Shown in pieces: positions 317 through 53,105 of a stretch of DNA of 64,000 nt; the stretch's first letter is position 1, and the number at the start of each line of letters is the position of its first letter. The notes beneath the pieces are model-generated. The model had not been told where the DNA came from, ran no database searches, and worked only from the letters and a program-made list of their open reading frames with translations. The DNA comes from Planctomycetaceae bacterium (lineage in GTDB: Bacteria > Planctomycetota > Planctomycetia > Planctomycetales > Planctomycetaceae). Both the position numbers and the translations under genes were made by a program. The DNA is taken from the NCBI GenBank assembly GCA_021732415.1, contig JAKFVC010000050.1, positions 1 to 64,000 of the forward strand, written 5' to 3'.

Positions 317-571
317 GATTGCCATTTGGCAGGCCGCATTCTAAGCCGCGGAGCGGCGACCGCATAAAGCCCAGGGTGGTAACCCCGGGATCCGTCCAGA
401 TGAAATGGACCAAGCCCCGACGGGGCGGCTGAACGAACTACGGAATCGGTCGCCCCTCCGGGGCATGGAGGTAAGTTGGGTGTCATTGTCTTGGGGCTTC
501 CGCCCCAAGCTTTATGCGGTCGCCGCTCCGCGGCTTGGAAAACTGACGGTGAATTGATTTGTCGAGAGGCT

Positions 572-45999: not shown

Positions 46000-46690
46000 C
46001 AAAGAAGTCAAAGAGTTCAAAGGAGTCGGGAGTATTGTGAGTTGCCTCAAACGGAGAAACGACAACCTGGAGTGGATGTTAAAGATGAAGAATTTGGAAC
46101 ACTGATCTTCGCTAATGAATACAGATCAAGAATCTTGGAATTGAACGTCGAGTTGACTTGCAGTCTAAGACTTATTGTCTCTAGTTAGTGTTGATTAGCG
46201 TAGATCAGTGTTCCCCAAATCCTCTTCGGTCCTGACTTGAGGGCATGCGATATACACCGGTTCAAAGAAATCAAAGAATTCAAAGAATTCAAACAAGTCG
46301 CGAGTTTGAAGTGCCTGTAGGATGGCCGCCCCGGCCGTCTCTTCGTCGCAGGATAGGCTTCCTGCCTGCCAGTTTGGTCGAATAAGCGACCATGGTTACT
46401 GTGCAAAAGTTCAAAGAAGTTGAAGAATTCAAAGAAGTCGAAGAAGTCGAAGAGCTCACAGAGGTCGAAGGGGTCAAAGACGACGGGTTCTGGCTGCTCG
46501 AACCAAAAAGGAGACGGCCGGGGCGGCCATCCTACGGGCATAAAGAGTTCAAAGAAGTCAAAGAGTTCGGCGAAGGCGTGAGTGAAGGTGGCTGTAGGAT
46601 GGCCGCCCCGGCCGTCTCCTTTTCGTCTTTGGGTACGCAAGTGGACGGTAGAGGTTCAAAGAAGTCGAAGAGTTCAAAGAAGGCGCGGGA
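46000..46690. repeat. Repeat island of TTCAAAGAA/GTCGAAGAA words and GGATGGCCGCC units
   Basis: 9-bp words such as TTCAAAGAA, GTTGAAGAA and GTCGAAGAA run in tandem at 46000-46028, 46261-46292, 46408-46478, 46545-46568 and 46653-46683. Between them lie three copies of GTAGGATGGCCGCCCCGGCC + GTCTC: direct at 46318-46342 and 46593-46617, inverted at 46511-46535. An inverted repeat of the AACACT-GATC family spans about 46095-46215. The whole 45338-46736 stretch (1.4 kb) therefore holds repeats and no supportable gene; open frames here encode K-E-V-E-E low-complexity sequence. Confidence 0.8.
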
Positions 46691-46736
46691 ATTCTCAGCT
46701 GGGTTCGCTCGACTCTGGAGAGTCAAGCGACGTTGG

Positions 46737-47687
46737 TTAGGCCGCTTTCTTGCGAGCCAGGCGGCGGGCTTCGCGGTCGCCGGGGGCTGTCTTCCAGCGT
46801 TTGTGGAGCCAGAAGTATTGTTCTGGGGCCCGGCGGACGGCTCGTTCGAGGGCGGCTGTGTACTTTTGCGTGATCTCGAGGATCGGGTTGTCGGTGTCGA
46901 GTTGTTGCGGGTCGATGACTTCTTCGACAGCGAGCTCGAAGCGTTCCCAGTACTCTCCACGTTCGGGTAGCCGGCGGGAGCAGCCGACGCAGATCAGGGC
47001 GTTGTATTGTTGGGCCAGCAGGGCGATCGTTTTCAGGGTCGAGGCTGGCTTGCCGAAGAATTCGACGAAGATCCCGCCGCGGCCGGCGTCTTGATCGCCC
47101 AGCAAAGCGAAGCGGCCCCCCTGCTCTAACAATTCCAGCATGTCGTCGAAGCAGTTTTTCTTGGCGATCAGTTGGTGTCCGGTCTGCTGACGGAAGCGAG
47201 CGAACCAGTTCTGGAGATAGGGGTTGTCGAGTTCTCGCGCGACGACTCCCATCTGGAAGCCGAAGAGGCCGAAGACCGAGATCGCCATTTCCCAGTTGCC
47301 GTAATGGCCGCTCAATAGCAGGACCGGGCGGTTGGAGAGGAGGGCGCGGACGGCGTCCGGTCGGTTGTGGAATTGGATGACGTCGTACGTGTTGTGTAGA
47401 TGGAGCTTGCGGGGTAAGTGAGCGATTTCCGATAGCAATCGGAAGAGGTGGACCCACATGTCGTGGATGGTCTGGTCGATTTCAGCCTCGTTTTTTTCGG
47501 AGAAGGCTTGTCGCAGATTGTCGTGGGCGACTTGATAGCGGGTTAGCTTGCGGGGCAAAAGATTGCAGATCACCCAGGCGAGGTTTTTGGCCAGGCGAGC
47601 ACAGCCGCGCGGGGGGAGGATCTGCCAGACGCAGAGGAGCATCCGGAAGACCAGGTATTCGCCGCGATATCGGAGGTTGCGCCACAT
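46737..47687 (-). CDS. Lysophospholipid/lipid A acyltransferase, LpxL/HtrB-like
   Basis: A 316-aa protein of the late lipid A acyltransferase family, which transfers an acyl chain to a lipid A precursor at the inner membrane. The catalytic HX4E box is H128-E133 (SGHYGNWEM), and the second conserved block GDQDAGRGGIFVEFFGKPAS is present. A hydrophobic N-terminus (YLVFRMLLCVWQIL) would anchor it. Three genes upstream on the same strand encode LptE-like and BamD-like lipoproteins, so an outer-membrane role is consistent. The lipid substrate in planctomycetes is inferred. Confidence 0.87.
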   Translation of the reverse strand: MWRNLRYRGEYLVFRMLLCVWQILPPRGCARLAKNLAWVICNLLPRKLTRYQVAHDNLRQAFSEKNEAEIDQTIHDMWVHLFRLLSEIAHLPRKLHLHNTYDVIQFHNRPDAVRALLSNRPVLLLSGHYGNWEMAISVFGLFGFQMGVVARELDNPYLQNWFARFRQQTGHQLIAKKNCFDDMLELLEQGGRFALLGDQDAGRGGIFVEFFGKPASTLKTIALLAQQYNALICVGCSRRLPERGEYWERFELAVEEVIDPQQLDTDNPILEITQKYTAALERAVRRAPEQYFWLHKRWKTAPGDREARRLARKKAA

Positions 47688-47718
47688 GATGAATTGCTTA
47701 TTGGAAGAGCGATGTATC

Positions 47719-47978
47719 GTGGGACGGGTCTCCAGGCCCGTCCGTCCTCTGCTAACTCAACTTAGGTTGACCACGAATCACACCAATGACACGAATAGAA
47801 GACTTTTAACATCCTCGCGTTCAAAATATTCTGTGTTTTTATTCGTGTGATTGGTGTTATTCGTGGTCCTAATTCTGGTCGTTTTTTGTCCCTTAACTCT
47901 AGTTCGTTTGTGGTTTGGGTTCTGGGCGTATTGAGTTGTATTGAAGGGGGACGGACGGGCCTGGAGACCCGTCCCACG
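47719..47978. repeat. Nested composite inverted repeat, module set 1
   Basis: Outer arms GTGGGACGGGTCTCCAGGCC + CGTCCGTCC (47719-47747) and their complement (about 47947-47978) enclose inner arms 47769-47799 (GACCACGAATCACACCAATG + ACACGAATAGA) and about 47841-47869. The inner arms are 9-bp words (CACGAATCA, CACCAATGA, CACGAATAG). The element fills the 305-bp gap between the LptE-like and LpxL-like genes. The outer arms recur at 51128-51311 around different inner arms. Confidence 0.85.
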
Positions 47979-47992
47979 ATACCATCAGACTT

Positions 47993-48571
47993 TCATAATG
48001 TTGGGGCTTCCATTAGATCGACGATTTCTCTGGCCATGCGGTCCATGACTTGTTGGTAGGCGGTTGCCAGTGATTGGCCGACTTCCGGGGCGAATTCTGC
48101 GTTTTGGATGAGCTGGATCTCGCTTTGCGAAATGGGGACTCGCTTTTCGGCCAGGACTTCGCCGGTCTTGAGATTCTCCCAGCGGACTTCGACTGTCAGC
48201 GACATTTGCAGTTCGCGGGGGTCGTCGTTTTTCGTTTCGCCGAGGACCCGCTTACGGGTGTTGACGATCTTGCCGATCAACTGCGTGTCGGCTGCGGGCT
48301 GGTCGACGACGCGAAAGGGGGTTCGCAGTTGGATCTCTTTTTGGACGGCTTCCGTGAGTTGAAACTCAAGGCCGCGGCGATCCGATTGAGATTTGAAGAT
48401 CGGCACGTAGACCGATTGGATCTCGGGTTCGAAGCCGTTGCCCATGCGGTAGCCGCAGCCGGTCATGAGGAGAGACAGGCAGAACAGCAGGATGCGGACG
48501 CGATTCGACCGAGTTGCCAGGCGACTTGGCGGCGCTGGTAGTGACTCGGGAATTCGCGATCGGTGCCCCAT
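47993..48571 (-). CDS. LptE-like LPS-assembly lipoprotein
   Basis: A 192-aa predicted lipoprotein. The signal peptide ends in a lipobox LLMTGC with Cys39 as lipidation site, followed directly by GYRMGNGFEPEIQSVYVPIF, the pattern of LptE family members, which plug LptD and deliver lipopolysaccharide to the outer membrane. The ATG at 48571 is chosen; the longer frame to 48703 adds unconserved residues before the signal. It is followed by a BamD-like gene upstream on the same strand (67 bp apart). Confidence 0.78.
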   Translation of the reverse strand: MGHRSRIPESLPAPPSRLATRSNRVRILLFCLSLLMTGCGYRMGNGFEPEIQSVYVPIFKSQSDRRGLEFQLTEAVQKEIQLRTPFRVVDQPAADTQLIGKIVNTRKRVLGETKNDDPRELQMSLTVEVRWENLKTGEVLAEKRVPISQSEIQLIQNAEFAPEVGQSLATAYQQVMDRMAREIVDLMEAPTL

Positions 48572-48612
48572 GGTGTTTCTCAAACGGCTGCCTGCACTTG
48601 TCGCTGCATTTC

Positions 48613-48637
48613 GCCCGACTCTGGAGAGTCCGGCTAC
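48613..48637. repeat. CCCGACTC-family single palindrome
   Basis: CGCCCGACTCTGGAGAGTCC + GGCTA lies in the 67-bp gap between the BamD-like and LptE-like genes, so the family is also found inside a likely operon. Confidence 0.6.
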
Positions 48638-48638
48638 G

Positions 48639-50123
48639 TTACGGTTTTGCTCGTGCTGGCGAATCGAACTTCGTCCGCTCGATTTCTTCTTCGGACGGAT
48701 CATTCACGAGTTCCGGTGGATCGACTTTACCCTTGGCCGGCGGCAGCTCTTCGTAGCTGTCGCTGGGTTCTTCATAGTTGCGGTCGTCCGATTTGGGCTC
48801 CGTGGCGGGCAGTTCCTCTTCTGCGGGGATCTTCGCTGGTGGCGTCGTTTTCTTGTCCTGCTTGCGCGGGAATTGCGGTCCGGCGGGTGGGGTCTCAGCG
48901 GCGGGTGTTTTGCCCTTCGCTGGAGTCTGGGGGGCGGCCTTGGGAGACTTGGGGGCATCCAGCGATTTCTCGTCGGGATAGTGTTCCAGCATTCCCGAGT
49001 AGTACTTCGGACCCAATTCCTGCAGGCGTTTCGCGGCCCGTTCGGCGAACGAACTGTCCGGGAAGTCCTTCAGGATGGACTCGAGGTAGATTGCTTCACC
49101 CTGCGGTTTCTGACGGTGTCGGTAGTACTCGGCGCGGGACCAGTTGCGTTCGGCGCCACGGTCTTTGATTTTGACGAGGTCGGCTTGCAGCGCTTCTTTT
49201 TCTGGAATGTTGGGGAACAGATTGAGCGTGCTGTGAATCAAATCGTCCGCATCGACGAGGTCCCGGCCGTCATAGCGGGGCCCCTGGTAGGAAGCCTGTT
49301 TGATTGTCGAACCGACCACGAACGCGGTCTGGGTGTGCTCACTTTTGGGATATTCTCGGCGTAGAACATCGAGGTAGTGATCGGCGTCGCGCAACTGACC
49401 TTTGCGGATGTGATAGACGGCCGTCATCATCAATGCGTCATCGGCCAGCGGGCCCAGCGGATCGTGTAGCCAGACTGACTTCAGGGCCTTGCGGGCATTG
49501 CCGGGTGTGTCGAACGCCGGGCGAGTCTTGTCAAAGAAGTTGGGGACCAGAGGCAGCGCATGCGGAATCGGCTTCCGGTTCACCTTCTCCGGTTCTTTGA
49601 CATCGGTAGCACTCACCTGGATCAGTTCATCGGACTTGGCCGTGCCGTCGCCATTCAACCAGATCACGGCGATGGTGTATAACCGCTTGGTGGTCTTTTC
49701 GAGATAGCGGCTGGACGGGAACTTCTTGATCAGCCCATCGTATTCGTCCTGAGCCCACGCGTAGCGTTGATCGGCATAGTAGCATTCCGCCACCATATAC
49801 ATGGCATCTTCTTCGACGGGGTAGTCGTAGAATTTCTTGGCGATGGCCTTAAATTCCTTGGCCGCGACCGCGTATTCTTTTTTCTCGAACTTCGCCATGG
49901 CCAGATCGTATTCGGCGAATCCGGCGTCTGGATCGACGATTTCGCGGGCCTTACGCTTGGCGAGAGGATTCTTGAAGAAGCGGTCTTCGCTGACCGTTTC
50001 CCGGGAATTCCGGCCCCCCATGGAAGAGCACCCGGTAATCCAACTCAGCGCGCAGACTAACGCCACGCACGTGATGAGTCGTACCGGAAAGGGATCGCGA
50101 GGGGATTGTAGCGACGCATCCAT
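48639..50123 (-). CDS. BamD-like TPR lipoprotein with long Pro/Lys/Glu tail
   Basis: A 494-aa predicted lipoprotein: signal peptide LITCVALVCALSWITGC with Cys32. Residues about 70-150 hold TPR-like helices (FAEYDLAMAKFEKKEYAVAA, YYADQRYAWAQDEYDGLIKK FPSS-type repeats), and further TPR-like motifs occur at about 230-270 and 320-360 (AIYLESILKDFPDSSFAERA). BamD (YfiO) is the TPR lipoprotein of the outer-membrane beta-barrel assembly machine, and it usually has about 245 aa. Here the last 130 residues are low-complexity (P, K, E, T), unusual for BamD. The ATG at 50123 is chosen since the frame to 50246 runs into a repeat. Confidence 0.7.
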   Translation of the reverse strand: MDASLQSPRDPFPVRLITCVALVCALSWITGCSSMGGRNSRETVSEDRFFKNPLAKRKAREIVDPDAGFAEYDLAMAKFEKKEYAVAAKEFKAIAKKFYDYPVEEDAMYMVAECYYADQRYAWAQDEYDGLIKKFPSSRYLEKTTKRLYTIAVIWLNGDGTAKSDELIQVSATDVKEPEKVNRKPIPHALPLVPNFFDKTRPAFDTPGNARKALKSVWLHDPLGPLADDALMMTAVYHIRKGQLRDADHYLDVLRREYPKSEHTQTAFVVGSTIKQASYQGPRYDGRDLVDADDLIHSTLNLFPNIPEKEALQADLVKIKDRGAERNWSRAEYYRHRQKPQGEAIYLESILKDFPDSSFAERAAKRLQELGPKYYSGMLEHYPDEKSLDAPKSPKAAPQTPAKGKTPAAETPPAGPQFPRKQDKKTTPPAKIPAEEELPATEPKSDDRNYEEPSDSYEELPPAKGKVDPPELVNDPSEEEIERTKFDSPARAKP

Positions 50124-50199
50124 GCGTCGGGTTTCCTTCGGGTGAAGTGACGGCTGCGACGGGGTTATTGAGACTGATGTCGATTGGACGGCTTGTGCA

Positions 50200-50302
50200 G
50201 TGTGAGAGTATGAGGGATGGAGTGTATGAGGGTGAGGACTATGCAATCACAGTCAGATCCAGCTCATACTCCGTTACTCTCGCACACTCATACCCTCATA
50301 CT
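50200..50302. repeat. GTGTGAG-family inverted repeat between BamD-like gene and recO
   Basis: The left arm 50200-50238 holds AGTGTGAGAGTATGAGGGAT + GG... words; the right arm 50263-50302 holds complementary CTCATACTC and CACACTCATACC words. Pairing is imperfect because words are shuffled. Confidence 0.8.
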
Positions 50303-50339
50303 AATTTGATATCACACAGACTGCTGAGCCATCCCGATG

Positions 50340-51095
50340 CTACGGGTTCATAAACTTCAGGTAGCCCATCATCTTGGGCCGTTTACCGAGGACGTGGCAA
50401 ATTGTGGGTGTCATGATTCGCCGGAGTTCTCGTTGCTGCGGAGCGGAAACAACCAGGCGTTGCCAGGCCGCTTCTTGTCCCGTCAGCAGTTGATTCAAGA
50501 TCGCGAGAGTTCCGGGTTGGATATGGCGGGCGTGATCAGCCTCGGGGTGGCAATCGGGGCAAATCAGACCTCCATGTCCGACGCTAAAATCAAACCAGAT
50601 ATCGGGAGCCACCGGCCGGCCACAATCGGCGCAGCCTTCCAACATCGGCAATTGTCCTATTTCTTCCAGCAGGACCAATTCCCATCGCAACACGGCCAGT
50701 TCCAGCGGCCCGTCGCCTGCGAATCGGTCCAGCGATTTCAATGCTTCGGAATACAAATCGGGATGGGGATCATCCAGTTCCGTCAGGCTGTCGAGCAATT
50801 CCGCGAGGTAATACCCCGCGTAAAGACTCTCCAAACTTCCGTGTCTGGCCGTAAATCGCTTCTGAAGTTTCGCCTCAGTGAGGATATCGAGACCTCCGCT
50901 CGACTTACGGATGAGGACTATATTGCAAATCGTTAACAGGTCAAGAGCAGACTCGAAGGCACTCTTGAGGCGTTTGGCCCCTTTGGCGACGGCGGCCAGC
51001 TTGCCGAAGTCGCTGGAAAAGAGCGTGACGACCTTGCTGCTTTCGCTCCAGTCGGCGAGGCGGATGACGAGCGCTTCGGTCTTTTCAGTCGACAC
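50340..51095 (-). CDS. recO: DNA repair protein RecO
   Basis: A 251-aa recombination mediator that, with RecR, helps load RecA on SSB-coated single-stranded DNA. The N-terminal OB-fold is seen in EALVIRLADWSESSKVVTLF and SSDFGKLAAVAKGAKRLKS. The zinc site is C155, C158, C179 and C182 (EGCADCGRPVA, LICPDCHPEADH). The length is typical. It is flanked by palindromic elements on both sides. Confidence 0.9.
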   Translation of the reverse strand: MSTEKTEALVIRLADWSESSKVVTLFSSDFGKLAAVAKGAKRLKSAFESALDLLTICNIVLIRKSSGGLDILTEAKLQKRFTARHGSLESLYAGYYLAELLDSLTELDDPHPDLYSEALKSLDRFAGDGPLELAVLRWELVLLEEIGQLPMLEGCADCGRPVAPDIWFDFSVGHGGLICPDCHPEADHARHIQPGTLAILNQLLTGQEAAWQRLVVSAPQQRELRRIMTPTICHVLGKRPKMMGYLKFMNP

Positions 51096-51127
51096 GTGGG
51101 GAGGGCCTTTGAGAGAGCGAAGTCGCC

Positions 51128-51311
51128 GTGGGACGGGTCTCCAGGCCCGTCCGTCCCTTGCTGATTGGACGCGGTTGGACCACGAATGAAAGTCCTAATT
51201 TCCTCTCCGTGTTCTCCGTGTCTCCGTGGTGAATATTCTGTCTCTTTGCACCACGGAGACACGGAGAACACGGAGAGGAGGGGGACGGACGGGCCTGGAG
51301 ACCCGTCCCAC
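51128..51311. repeat. Nested composite inverted repeat, module set 2
   Basis: Outer arms GTGGGACGGGTCTCCAGGCC + CGTCCGTCC (51128-51156) and complement (about 51281-51311) are the same as in the element at 47719-47978. The inner arms differ: 51202-51231 (CCTCTCCGTGTTCTCCGTGT + CTCCGTGGTG) is the exact complement of 51249-51278, built of 8-9-bp CTCCGTGTT words. The element fills the gap between recO and the dehydrogenase gene. Confidence 0.9.
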
Positions 51312-51317
51312 GACACG

Positions 51318-52298: not shown

Positions 52299-52417
52299 CG
52301 AAGTCAGACTCCCCAGAAGACAATCGAGATTGAGTTTGGACGATCAATTTGCAGGGTATGTGAAACACCGAATGGCCGCAACTCAATTGCGGACGGCATT
52401 CGATTTACATTCTTGAA

Positions 52418-52481
52418 CTTCGTGTCCTTCGTGAGCTTCTTTTCAAATGCATTTTTACAGAAGCTCACGAAGGACACGAAG
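52418..52481. repeat. Perfect 23-bp inverted repeat of CTTCGTGTC words
   Basis: The arms at 52418-52440 (CTTCGTGTCCTTCGTGAGCT + TCT) and 52459-52481 are exact reverse complements, made of 9-bp words CTTCGTGTC, CTTCGTGAG. A single similar arm lies at 53032-53065 in front of the PQQ-like gene. The pair sits between the dehydrogenase and GxxExxY genes. Confidence 0.9.
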
Positions 52482-52533
52482 GAAGAAAGAGGAGGGTTAG
52501 TGGATATTGATGGTCTGTCGGAATTACTGTCCG

Positions 52534-52938
52534 TTAATTGCCTTTCGGGTCTTGTAGCACCATGCGCGAAATTCCGTCCACGAGTTTCATTTCATGAAAG
52601 TTCAAGACCAAACCCAGTGGAACATTCAGCAATTTCATGTAACTCAATAATTGAGCCTTGTGGACTGGAAGTACCTTTTCTACAGCCTTTATTTCCAAGA
52701 GAAGAACTCCGTCAACAAGTAGGTCGAACTTTAAAGGCTCAGTGAAAGTCGACCCTTTGTATTCGATCTCGACCTGCTGTTGTGTCAGAACCGGAATTCC
52801 GCGGAGTTCAAATTCACGAATCAAGCACTTTTCGTATATGGTTTCCAGCAACCCGGGCCCAAGAATTCGATGAACTTCGATTGCCGCACCGATCGCTTCT
52901 CGACTCAAGCGGTCCGCATCGGCGAATTTTGGATGCAT
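52534..52938 (-). CDS. GxxExxY family protein
   Basis: A 134-aa protein with the family-naming motif GLLETIYEKCL (about residues 29-39) and the nuclease-like core LKFDLLVDGVLLLEIKAVEK (D...ExK at about 73-90), consistent with a PD-(D/E)XK-like fold. The function of the family is not established; copies are often scattered in planctomycete genomes. It is flanked by CTTCGTGTC-family repeats on both sides, in a stretch of lower GC and looser codon choice than its neighbours. Confidence 0.85.
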   Translation of the reverse strand: MHPKFADADRLSREAIGAAIEVHRILGPGLLETIYEKCLIREFELRGIPVLTQQQVEIEYKGSTFTEPLKFDLLVDGVLLLEIKAVEKVLPVHKAQLLSYMKLLNVPLGLVLNFHEMKLVDGISRMVLQDPKGN

Positions 52939-53105
52939 GATCTCGTCTCGTGATGAGCAGATGTAAAACCGAAAACAAGTTGTCGAAATCCTAAATCTAT
53001 TAGCCGACCATCAAAGTCGACTATTCTTTATCTTCGCATCCCTTCGTGTCCTTTGTGATCTTCTGTTCAAAATGTATTTTGTTTTTGGCAAGAGCGTCTC
53101 ATCTG

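Follow-up and report, generated by a model that had tools for sequence, protein, structure and literature searches.

The palindromic elements described here are probably nested mobile palindromes of two kinds, with a REPIN of the RAYT type on the outside and separate repeat families inside, the word-like modules among the latter likely being related to GxxExxY genes. Within the window (the whole stretch of 64,000 nucleotides that was analyzed), two such elements lie where the original prediction had placed them, with arms extending slightly further out. Their outer arms are identical over 31 nt, and the inner inverted pairs that had been described are real (91% complementary in element 1, 100% in element 2). 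Each element sits in a gap of its own, and both gaps are bordered by minus-strand genes, as had been noted: a 316-aa acyltransferase-like ORF and an LptE-like ORF for element 1, recO and a D-2-hydroxyacid-dehydrogenase-like gene for element 2 (all named by eye from translations). The arm core has four matches in the window, against none in 100 shuffles, and both elements fold much more stably as DNA than shuffled sequence does (z = -14.4 for element 1 and -17.5 for element 2). An Rfam search of the elements matched no RNA family. The features of the window are as follows.

47714..47982, no strand: element 1, outer REPIN with type B arms and an inner M2 (CACGAATCA) palindrome
47714..47747, + strand: left outer arm of element 1, a REP with head GTGG, a GACGGG-TCTCCAGG-CCCGTC hairpin and tail GTCC
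47769..47868, no strand: inner module M2 of element 1, CACGAAT-type words with a 9-bp word period, arms 47769-47800 and 47837-47868
47948..47982, - strand: right outer arm of element 1, inverted
50204..50302, no strand: another palindrome of the word type, M8 (GTGTGAGAGTATGAGGG), located in the following gap of this gene cluster; not present in the relatives G003 and G002
51127..51312, no strand: element 2, outer REPIN with type B arms and an inner M3 (CTCCGTGTT / CACGGAG) palindrome
51127..51157, + strand: left outer arm of element 2
51201..51279, no strand: inner module M3 of element 2, a perfect 31-bp inverted pair (51201-51231 and 51249-51279) with a 17-nt loop
51282..51312, - strand: right outer arm of element 2
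52413..52486, no strand: M1-type hairpin close to the 3' end of the GxxExxY gene
52534..52938, - strand: GxxExxY gene (PD-(D/E)XK nuclease superfamily)
53041..53082, + strand: M1-type arm and loop lying 5' of the GxxExxY gene, in opposite orientation to the 3'-side hairpin

The original prediction would have fallen had these two copies been the only ones, but the outer arm is far from confined to these two elements. About 600 copies occur genome-wide (296 forward and 302 reverse; 0 for a reversed-pattern control), which corresponds to an outer family of about 300 element copies in this planctomycete genome. All 84 catalogued outer elements are convergent doublets; besides them we found 15 single arms, one tandem pair and no other arrangement. 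Each arm has a GTGG or GTAG head (variable base 89% G, 10% A) followed by a 7-9 bp stem, and the elements, which end at G-T-A-T/C-C-G-T-G, measure 90-391 bp with a few longer; their spacers exceed typical REPIN spacers. Type B arms share 96.5% mean pairwise identity, against 70-86% for related interiors. Two RAYT genes of the genome (G000) are flanked by inverted arms of this family, one by type B (G000:C40) and one by type A (G000:C9), and ten other Y1 matches carry other REPs. As one RAYT gene is flanked per arm subtype, we assign the outer elements to REPINs, a known kind. The C40 RAYT shows an HUH motif (MPNHVHV) and a catalytic tyrosine motif (AIQYIGRN) in alignment; its profile matches fall below the curated cut-offs of both NCBIfam REP_Tyr_transpos (NF047646, E 2e-16, 60 against 80 bits) and Pfam PF01797 (21.4 against 23 bits). 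The predicted model of a 48% homologue had as its best match 4er8, an E. coli RAYT in complex with REP (E 1e-6). In the 87% complete assembly of G003, which holds ~67 elements, no RAYT closer than 43% was detected. This result, the sub-threshold profile matches and the long spacers weigh against the REPIN reading.

REPINs are intergenic, number in the hundreds and consist of two inverted REPs whose GTAG-type heads point outward; each REP family has one RAYT, adjacent to or between REPs, and arms are better conserved than spacers (Bertels and Rainey 2011, PMC3116915; Nunvar et al. 2010, PMC2817692). The outer elements share the GTAG-type head, the inverted doublets, the copy number, the RAYT-flanking REP and arms better conserved than the rest. 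By analogy, a RAYT presumably mobilizes them in trans: the RAYT Y1 transposase would recognize both REP hairpins of an inverted pair, each with head GTGG/GTAG and a GACGGG/CCCGTC stem, in single-stranded form and would copy such pairs in trans. Unlike described REPINs, most elements here hold other palindromes (at least 16 families) and they reach ~390 bp and more, some composites being copied as units. The earlier statement that no described family has this architecture was nevertheless too strong, as reported REPINs or head-to-head REP dimers include some whose spacers are structured or varied (PMC3116915, PMC3733652). REPINs inserted into REPINs have been described as well; in five regions of P. 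fluorescens SBW25, one REPIN has inserted within or beside another (PMC3116915). The available excerpts of Di Nocera et al. 2013 (PMC3733652) describe GTAG-tagged head-to-head REP dimers with several spacer types per family and structured spacers, list planctomycetes among the carriers, mention some REP dimers inside longer palindromes, and cover RAYT genes that have REPs or long TIRs on their flanks (REPtrons/TIRtrons); these excerpts contain no comparable scale of nesting and no link between word palindromes and a PD-(D/E)XK gene. In the literature searched, we found no description of nesting on this scale or of what the word-type inner modules are.

Inner palindromes are the rule rather than the exception. 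About 75% of the outer elements hold one or more, and the inner families number at least 16, most of which also occur free-standing. Some inner modules are REPINs of other RAYTs, triple nests exist (e.g. L040:15630), and some composites of outer and inner parts form subfamilies copied as units; the interior of element 1 is shared at 73-75% with elements at L057 (6313, 8460 and 11329) and L103. M1 was found 33 times inside outer elements versus 18 times outside, with interiors making up 1.3% of the DNA, a strong enrichment, but one drawn from stretches picked around outer arms and from composites copied as units. Once inside, an inner module could ride as cargo of the outer REPIN. Such nesting would extend REPIN/RAYT biology to hundreds of elements that act as carriers of other mobile palindromes, and, with sister species providing empty sites, it lends itself to a population-biology approach.

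The word modules CACGAATCA, CTCCGTGTT and CTTCGTGTCC are not REPs; they share a grammar of ~9-bp words, with about three such words each in M2 and M3. The window gene at 52534..52938 links this class to a protein family. It is a full member of the GxxExxY family (TIGR04256 129.7 bits, PF13366 124.7 bits, above the curated cut-off), its flanking inverted-repeat score of 57 is reached by only 6 of 1011 control genes, and it is a candidate parent of M1-type word palindromes. The stretch comprising the gene and its M1 repeats (52410-53082) is absent from the corresponding slots of G003 and G002, where other word palindromes occur; this pattern may reflect an insertion that differs between close relatives, or a loss in both of them. 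Word inverted repeats flank GxxExxY at 5 of 10 unselected loci versus ~1.4% of the 1011 control genes, and palindrome-flanked GxxExxY genes occur in Planctomycetota, Gemmatimonadota and Bacteroidota. Five GxxExxY genes, from Treponema, Prevotella, Persicobacter, Fusobacteria and Sphingomonas, had no significant flanking repeat. Two of three predictions of a GxxExxY gene between word repeats held: M3 pairs 451 and 511 bp apart (L252 and L253) both enclose one, as predicted beforehand (E 9e-45 and 7e-49), and the stretch between two M1 hairpins 507 bp apart (G003:C386) contains none and is a palindrome array.

Because M3-like and M1-like palindromes bound GxxExxY genes, the word palindromes look like ends and miniatures of a GxxExxY-encoded element. 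M3 is probably such a miniature form and so, perhaps, is M2, the latter by word grammar alone: no M2 palindrome was found beside a GxxExxY gene, and it shares only the triple 9-bp word pattern. Like bacterial MITEs, the word palindromes are short, non-coding, inverted and abundant, and far outnumber gene-bearing copies; unlike them, they enclose a GxxExxY PD-(D/E)XK nuclease gene instead of a known transposase, with no target duplication established. We infer that the nuclease moves the word palindromes. A wider proposal, which we regard as plausible yet somewhat short of probable, is that GxxExxY proteins are the mobilizing nucleases of an undescribed multi-phylum element class that is bounded by inverted arrays, each with about three ~9-bp words; palindromes built of such words (CACGGAG, CACGAAT, CACGAAG etc.), which abound in planctomycetes and other bacteria, would then be miniature derivatives, carried as nested cargo in RAYT-driven REPINs.

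GxxExxY genes might instead be passengers, the word palindromes being moved by something else that merely tolerates or targets the gene. We consider this the less likely reading, though a serious one: about half of the examined GxxExxY genes lack a flanking word repeat, word repeats vastly outnumber these genes, and the G003:C386 prediction failed. Against it, members of this gene family from three or more phyla are enclosed by such repeats, and the words in the arms differ; both gene-sized M3 arm pairs held it, and no other gene bounded by M3 arms was seen in the DNA examined. GxxExxY was detected neither in a phage collection nor in a protein-level scan of a viral collection, nor near 155 word-bearing loci of the latter, the last result counting against the GxxExxY link. 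Available excerpts of the literature searched make passing mention of the gene and contain nothing on repeats or mobility, and a literature search for the word sequences themselves returned none. For GxxExxY, a widespread nuclease family without a function reported in the literature searched, the inner layer suggests a testable role. The hairpins bounding these genes in several bacterial phyla may point to an undescribed type of mobile element, and offer a possible explanation for word-like palindromic repeats recurring across phyla. If the nuclease moves the word palindromes, this would amount to a novel mechanism of DNA mobilization; otherwise an explanation for the association is still needed.

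The original prediction had read the two elements as a cassette with exchangeable inner palindromes. This survives insofar as one arm family encloses at least 16 inner kinds in 84 elements and two slots combine the same arms with a different interior, but not as a claim that swapping via arms is the main route. The slot of element 1 holds a lone M1 hairpin in G003 and is empty in G001, and that of element 2 holds an unrelated GTAGCCTGACTC REPIN in G003 and G002. Further slots are likewise empty in G002 or hold something different in G003 or G002. Two orthologous slots (L057:11329 and L064:16431) agree between G000 and its relative G003 in their outer arms but differ in their interiors, the G000 copy at L064:16431 being a hybrid that pairs a type B with a type A arm; at the shared slots L064:760 and L035:17795, spacers diverge much more than flanks. 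These four slots are what exchange would produce if identical 22-31 bp arms served as handles and interiors were swapped by homologous recombination or gene conversion, and so are arms ~96% alike between copies whose same-kind interiors differ by 14-30%. As a general explanation exchange is nonetheless unlikely, since arm subtypes are strongly co-inherited and pair with themselves (61 BB, 9 AA and 3 A/B hybrids versus 17.5 hybrids expected at random), inner modules are also free-standing, some composites are copied as units, and empty sites indicate that whole elements come or go. Unit copying, the empty sites and different occupants in sister species, and the two same-arm slots together argue for nesting combined with turnover and, now and then, replacement. 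Most of the pattern is accounted for by nesting, the copying of composites as units and the turnover of slots; slots would turn over between species, and arms might sometimes exchange interiors. Slots with palindromes in both G000 and G003 gave p = 0.008 in a hotspot test, with no association for G002, but we make no hotspot claim because the G000/G003 overlap is confounded by shared descent and by the choice of element-bearing stretches.

Retention by a host function, such as ending transcription or stabilizing mRNA, with inner palindromes merely lengthening the hairpin, appears very unlikely. It would suit the very stable folds and the position of elements in tandem gene pairs, a short distance past the stop codon of the upstream gene (median 4 bp). 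However, neighbor orientation equals the background within the limits of crude gene calls (44 unidirectional, 17 convergent and 15 divergent versus 413, 148 and 150), with no preference for convergent or tandem pairs; copy number ranges from hundreds to none within one genus, and slots are empty or otherwise occupied in sister species. A reading of the outer elements as ordinary DDE-transposase MITEs, not REPINs, was rejected as highly improbable: their terminal inverted repeats and 90-390 bp length without coding capacity fit the usual MITE description, but no target-site duplication was detected (flanking direct repeats of 83 elements were no commoner than in shuffled pairs), every arm forms a hairpin of its own, headed by GTGG/GTAG, and only Y1/RAYT genes, no DDE transposase gene, were seen between such arms.

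The outer REPINs and their cargo differ in range. Counted on both strands, arm copies number 598, 133, 21 and 0 in four congeneric genomes, with few or none elsewhere; the outer arm is restricted to the genus. By contrast, 23 genomes out of 294 sampled from the whole phylum contain M3, with up to 257 arms per genome.

Both window elements lie where the original prediction placed them, each between two minus-strand genes and each enclosing its own inner inverted pair, with outer arms slightly longer than first described (47714-47747 / 47948-47982 in element 1; 51127-51157 / 51282-51312 in element 2). These arms match each other exactly across 31 nt, and the arm core (GGACGGGTCTCCAGGCCCGTCC) occurs four times in the window vs. 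0 in 100 shuffles. Folded as single-stranded DNA, element 1 reached -79.6 kcal/mol (z -14.4) and element 2 -89.3 kcal/mol (z -17.5). They are not the only two copies genome-wide: the source genome (9.87 Mb, 350 contigs) contains 296 forward and 302 reverse copies of the core at up to 3 mismatches, and none of a reversed-core control. Across four congeneric genomes, arm copies on both strands numbered 598, 133, 21, and 0, with few or none in the rest of the family and class. The 1.15 Mb fetched around arms yielded 84 doublets (90 to 707 bp), convergent in 84/84, and 15 single arms. A single arm forms a hairpin on its own, with a GTGG or GTAG head. Pooled element ends read G-T-A-T/C-C-G-T-G ahead of GGACGGG; outward of these ends the sequence is near random, and no target duplication showed up. 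Arm tails distinguished subtypes B (GTCC) and A (GAGCC), which pair with their own kind (61 BB, 9 AA, and 3 hybrids vs. 17.5 hybrids expected at random).

Y1 transposases gave 13 matches in this genome, among them the C40 gene below; two Y1 genes lie within inverted outer arms:

C40:22859 (contig of the source genome), Y1 transposase gene inside inverted type B arms, ~810 bp end to end
C9:94834 (contig of the source genome), second Y1 transposase, 65% identical to the C40 one, inside inverted type A arms

The C40 protein carries both the HUH motif and the tyrosine, matched NCBIfam REP_Tyr_transpos at E 2e-16 with a score below the family cut-off, and has a 48% homologue whose model best matched 4er8, the E. 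coli REP-associated transposase (RAYT) bound to a REP hairpin. Other RAYTs of the genome are flanked by different REPs, including GTAGCCCGACTCTCTGAGTCGGG (C21) and GTAGGATGGCCGCCCCGGCCGTC (C167), kinds also found within outer elements. The outer elements qualify as REPINs as PMC3116915 and PMC3733652 define them. They form a new family within a known kind, and their cargo is unusual; the suggestion that no described family has this architecture goes too far. The arms, their pairing, the gene associations, the slot differences, and the copying of composites as units are shown directly, whereas we infer which protein moves which element: RAYT most likely copies the outer doublet via single-stranded hairpins, as proposed for REPINs generally, and the sequence between the arms would travel along.

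At least one recognized inner palindrome family was present in 63 of the 84 outer elements (16-17 families in all), with two or three nested layers in a few. Most inner families are found away from outer elements as well, and some lie mainly there (M6: 5 inside vs. 96 outside). Seven composite groups had interiors that matched for the greater part of their length (identity 70-86%); outer and inner parts can therefore be copied as one; element 1 groups with L057 6313/8460/11329 and L103 (73-75%). The M3 palindrome of element 2 was detected in 23/294 genomes drawn from the phylum, with 257 arms in one genome of a different family; the ranges of inner and outer parts are therefore quite different. 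In the congener G002, the slots of L064:13900 (L124) and L035:17795 (L129) hold other nested palindromes, a REPIN in a REPIN and a REP pair inside CACGGATGAA words; nesting is thus not restricted to the outer family studied. It also occurs in Verrucomicrobiota, where a RAYT gene of a Prosthecobacter MAG (L159) has nested palindromes on both sides (GTAGGCCGGATGTGTTTGGCGC outer, GAGTTCTCTTCGCCAAACTATCCGGC inner).

Slots in sister species differ by gain or loss of whole elements and by nesting. The element 2 slot, adjoining recO (identity 99% in G003, 95% in G002, 82% in G001), holds a GTAGCCTGACTC REPIN in G003 and G002; the element 1 slot holds a lone M1 hairpin in G003 and is empty in G001. 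In G002 the slots L057:8460, L057:11329, and L064:11987 contain no element. The L057:8460 slot in G003 (L120, C917) contains the same composite plus a ~210-bp inverted-repeat element inserted into the right arm between 12-bp direct repeats (GGCCAAGAGACC). This inserted element, with ends TTGGGATTACCCTACTTT / AAAGTAGGGTAATCCCAA, is of a different kind and sits nested within a REP arm. The proposed exchange of interiors has partial support: at L057:11329 and L064:16431, G003 has outer arms around a different interior, which is either replacement or, fitting equally well, independent reoccupation. A third palindrome of GTGTGAGAGTATGAGGG words lies in the same gene cluster (window 50204-50302), its slot clean in G003 and G002.

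Arms of the word palindromes M1, M2, and M3 share a 9-bp period (identity 0.61-0.68 at lag 9); the M2 and M3 modules of the window elements lack a GTAG head, and no accompanying RAYT was seen. A scan for arms spaced further apart reached a nuclease gene:

Window 52534-52938, GxxExxY gene (TIGR04256, PF13366), flanked on both sides by M1-type repeats

Its slot in G003 and G002 holds other word palindromes. Word repeats also bound GxxExxY genes on plasmids of Gemmatirosa (GAACCGCAGAGGACGCAGAGG), Bacteroides (TTCACCACAGAGGACGCAGAGG), and Bernardetia (AACACAGAGATAAGGAG). Among 1011 control genes, 2, 10, and 14, respectively, attained these flank scores; the score of the window gene was attained by 6 controls, and the score of a weak homologue (L233) by 8. 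GxxExxY genes from Treponema, Prevotella, Persicobacter, Fusobacteria, and Sphingomonas scored at control level. Two M3 pairs in other families had been singled out beforehand as spaced widely enough for such a gene, and both enclosed GxxExxY (E 7e-49, 9e-45), the only such genes in 249 kb of M3-rich stretches. A predicted GxxExxY gene between M1 hairpins in G003 was not found, a failed prediction, and none lay near words in 155 word-bearing loci of a viral collection. Word palindromes are probably the termini and miniature versions of a GxxExxY element, their words probably serving as nuclease binding sites; for M2, word grammar alone suggests the link. The portions of the literature searched contained no report of this association, which is no proof of absence overall, and the passages on GxxExxY or PF13366 read there do not deal with repeats.

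One intergenic stretch in G003 (L272, C386, 3600-4500) is densely packed with several palindrome families, including two near-identical M1 hairpins ~510 bp apart. In the window, overlapping ORFs on both strands at 46185-46970, built of short repeated words (KEVEEFKEVEE-type translations), look like another word-type repeat array between genes, and 490-535 (+) matched the Rfam Acido-Lenti-1 RNA at 37.1 bits (gathering score 37).
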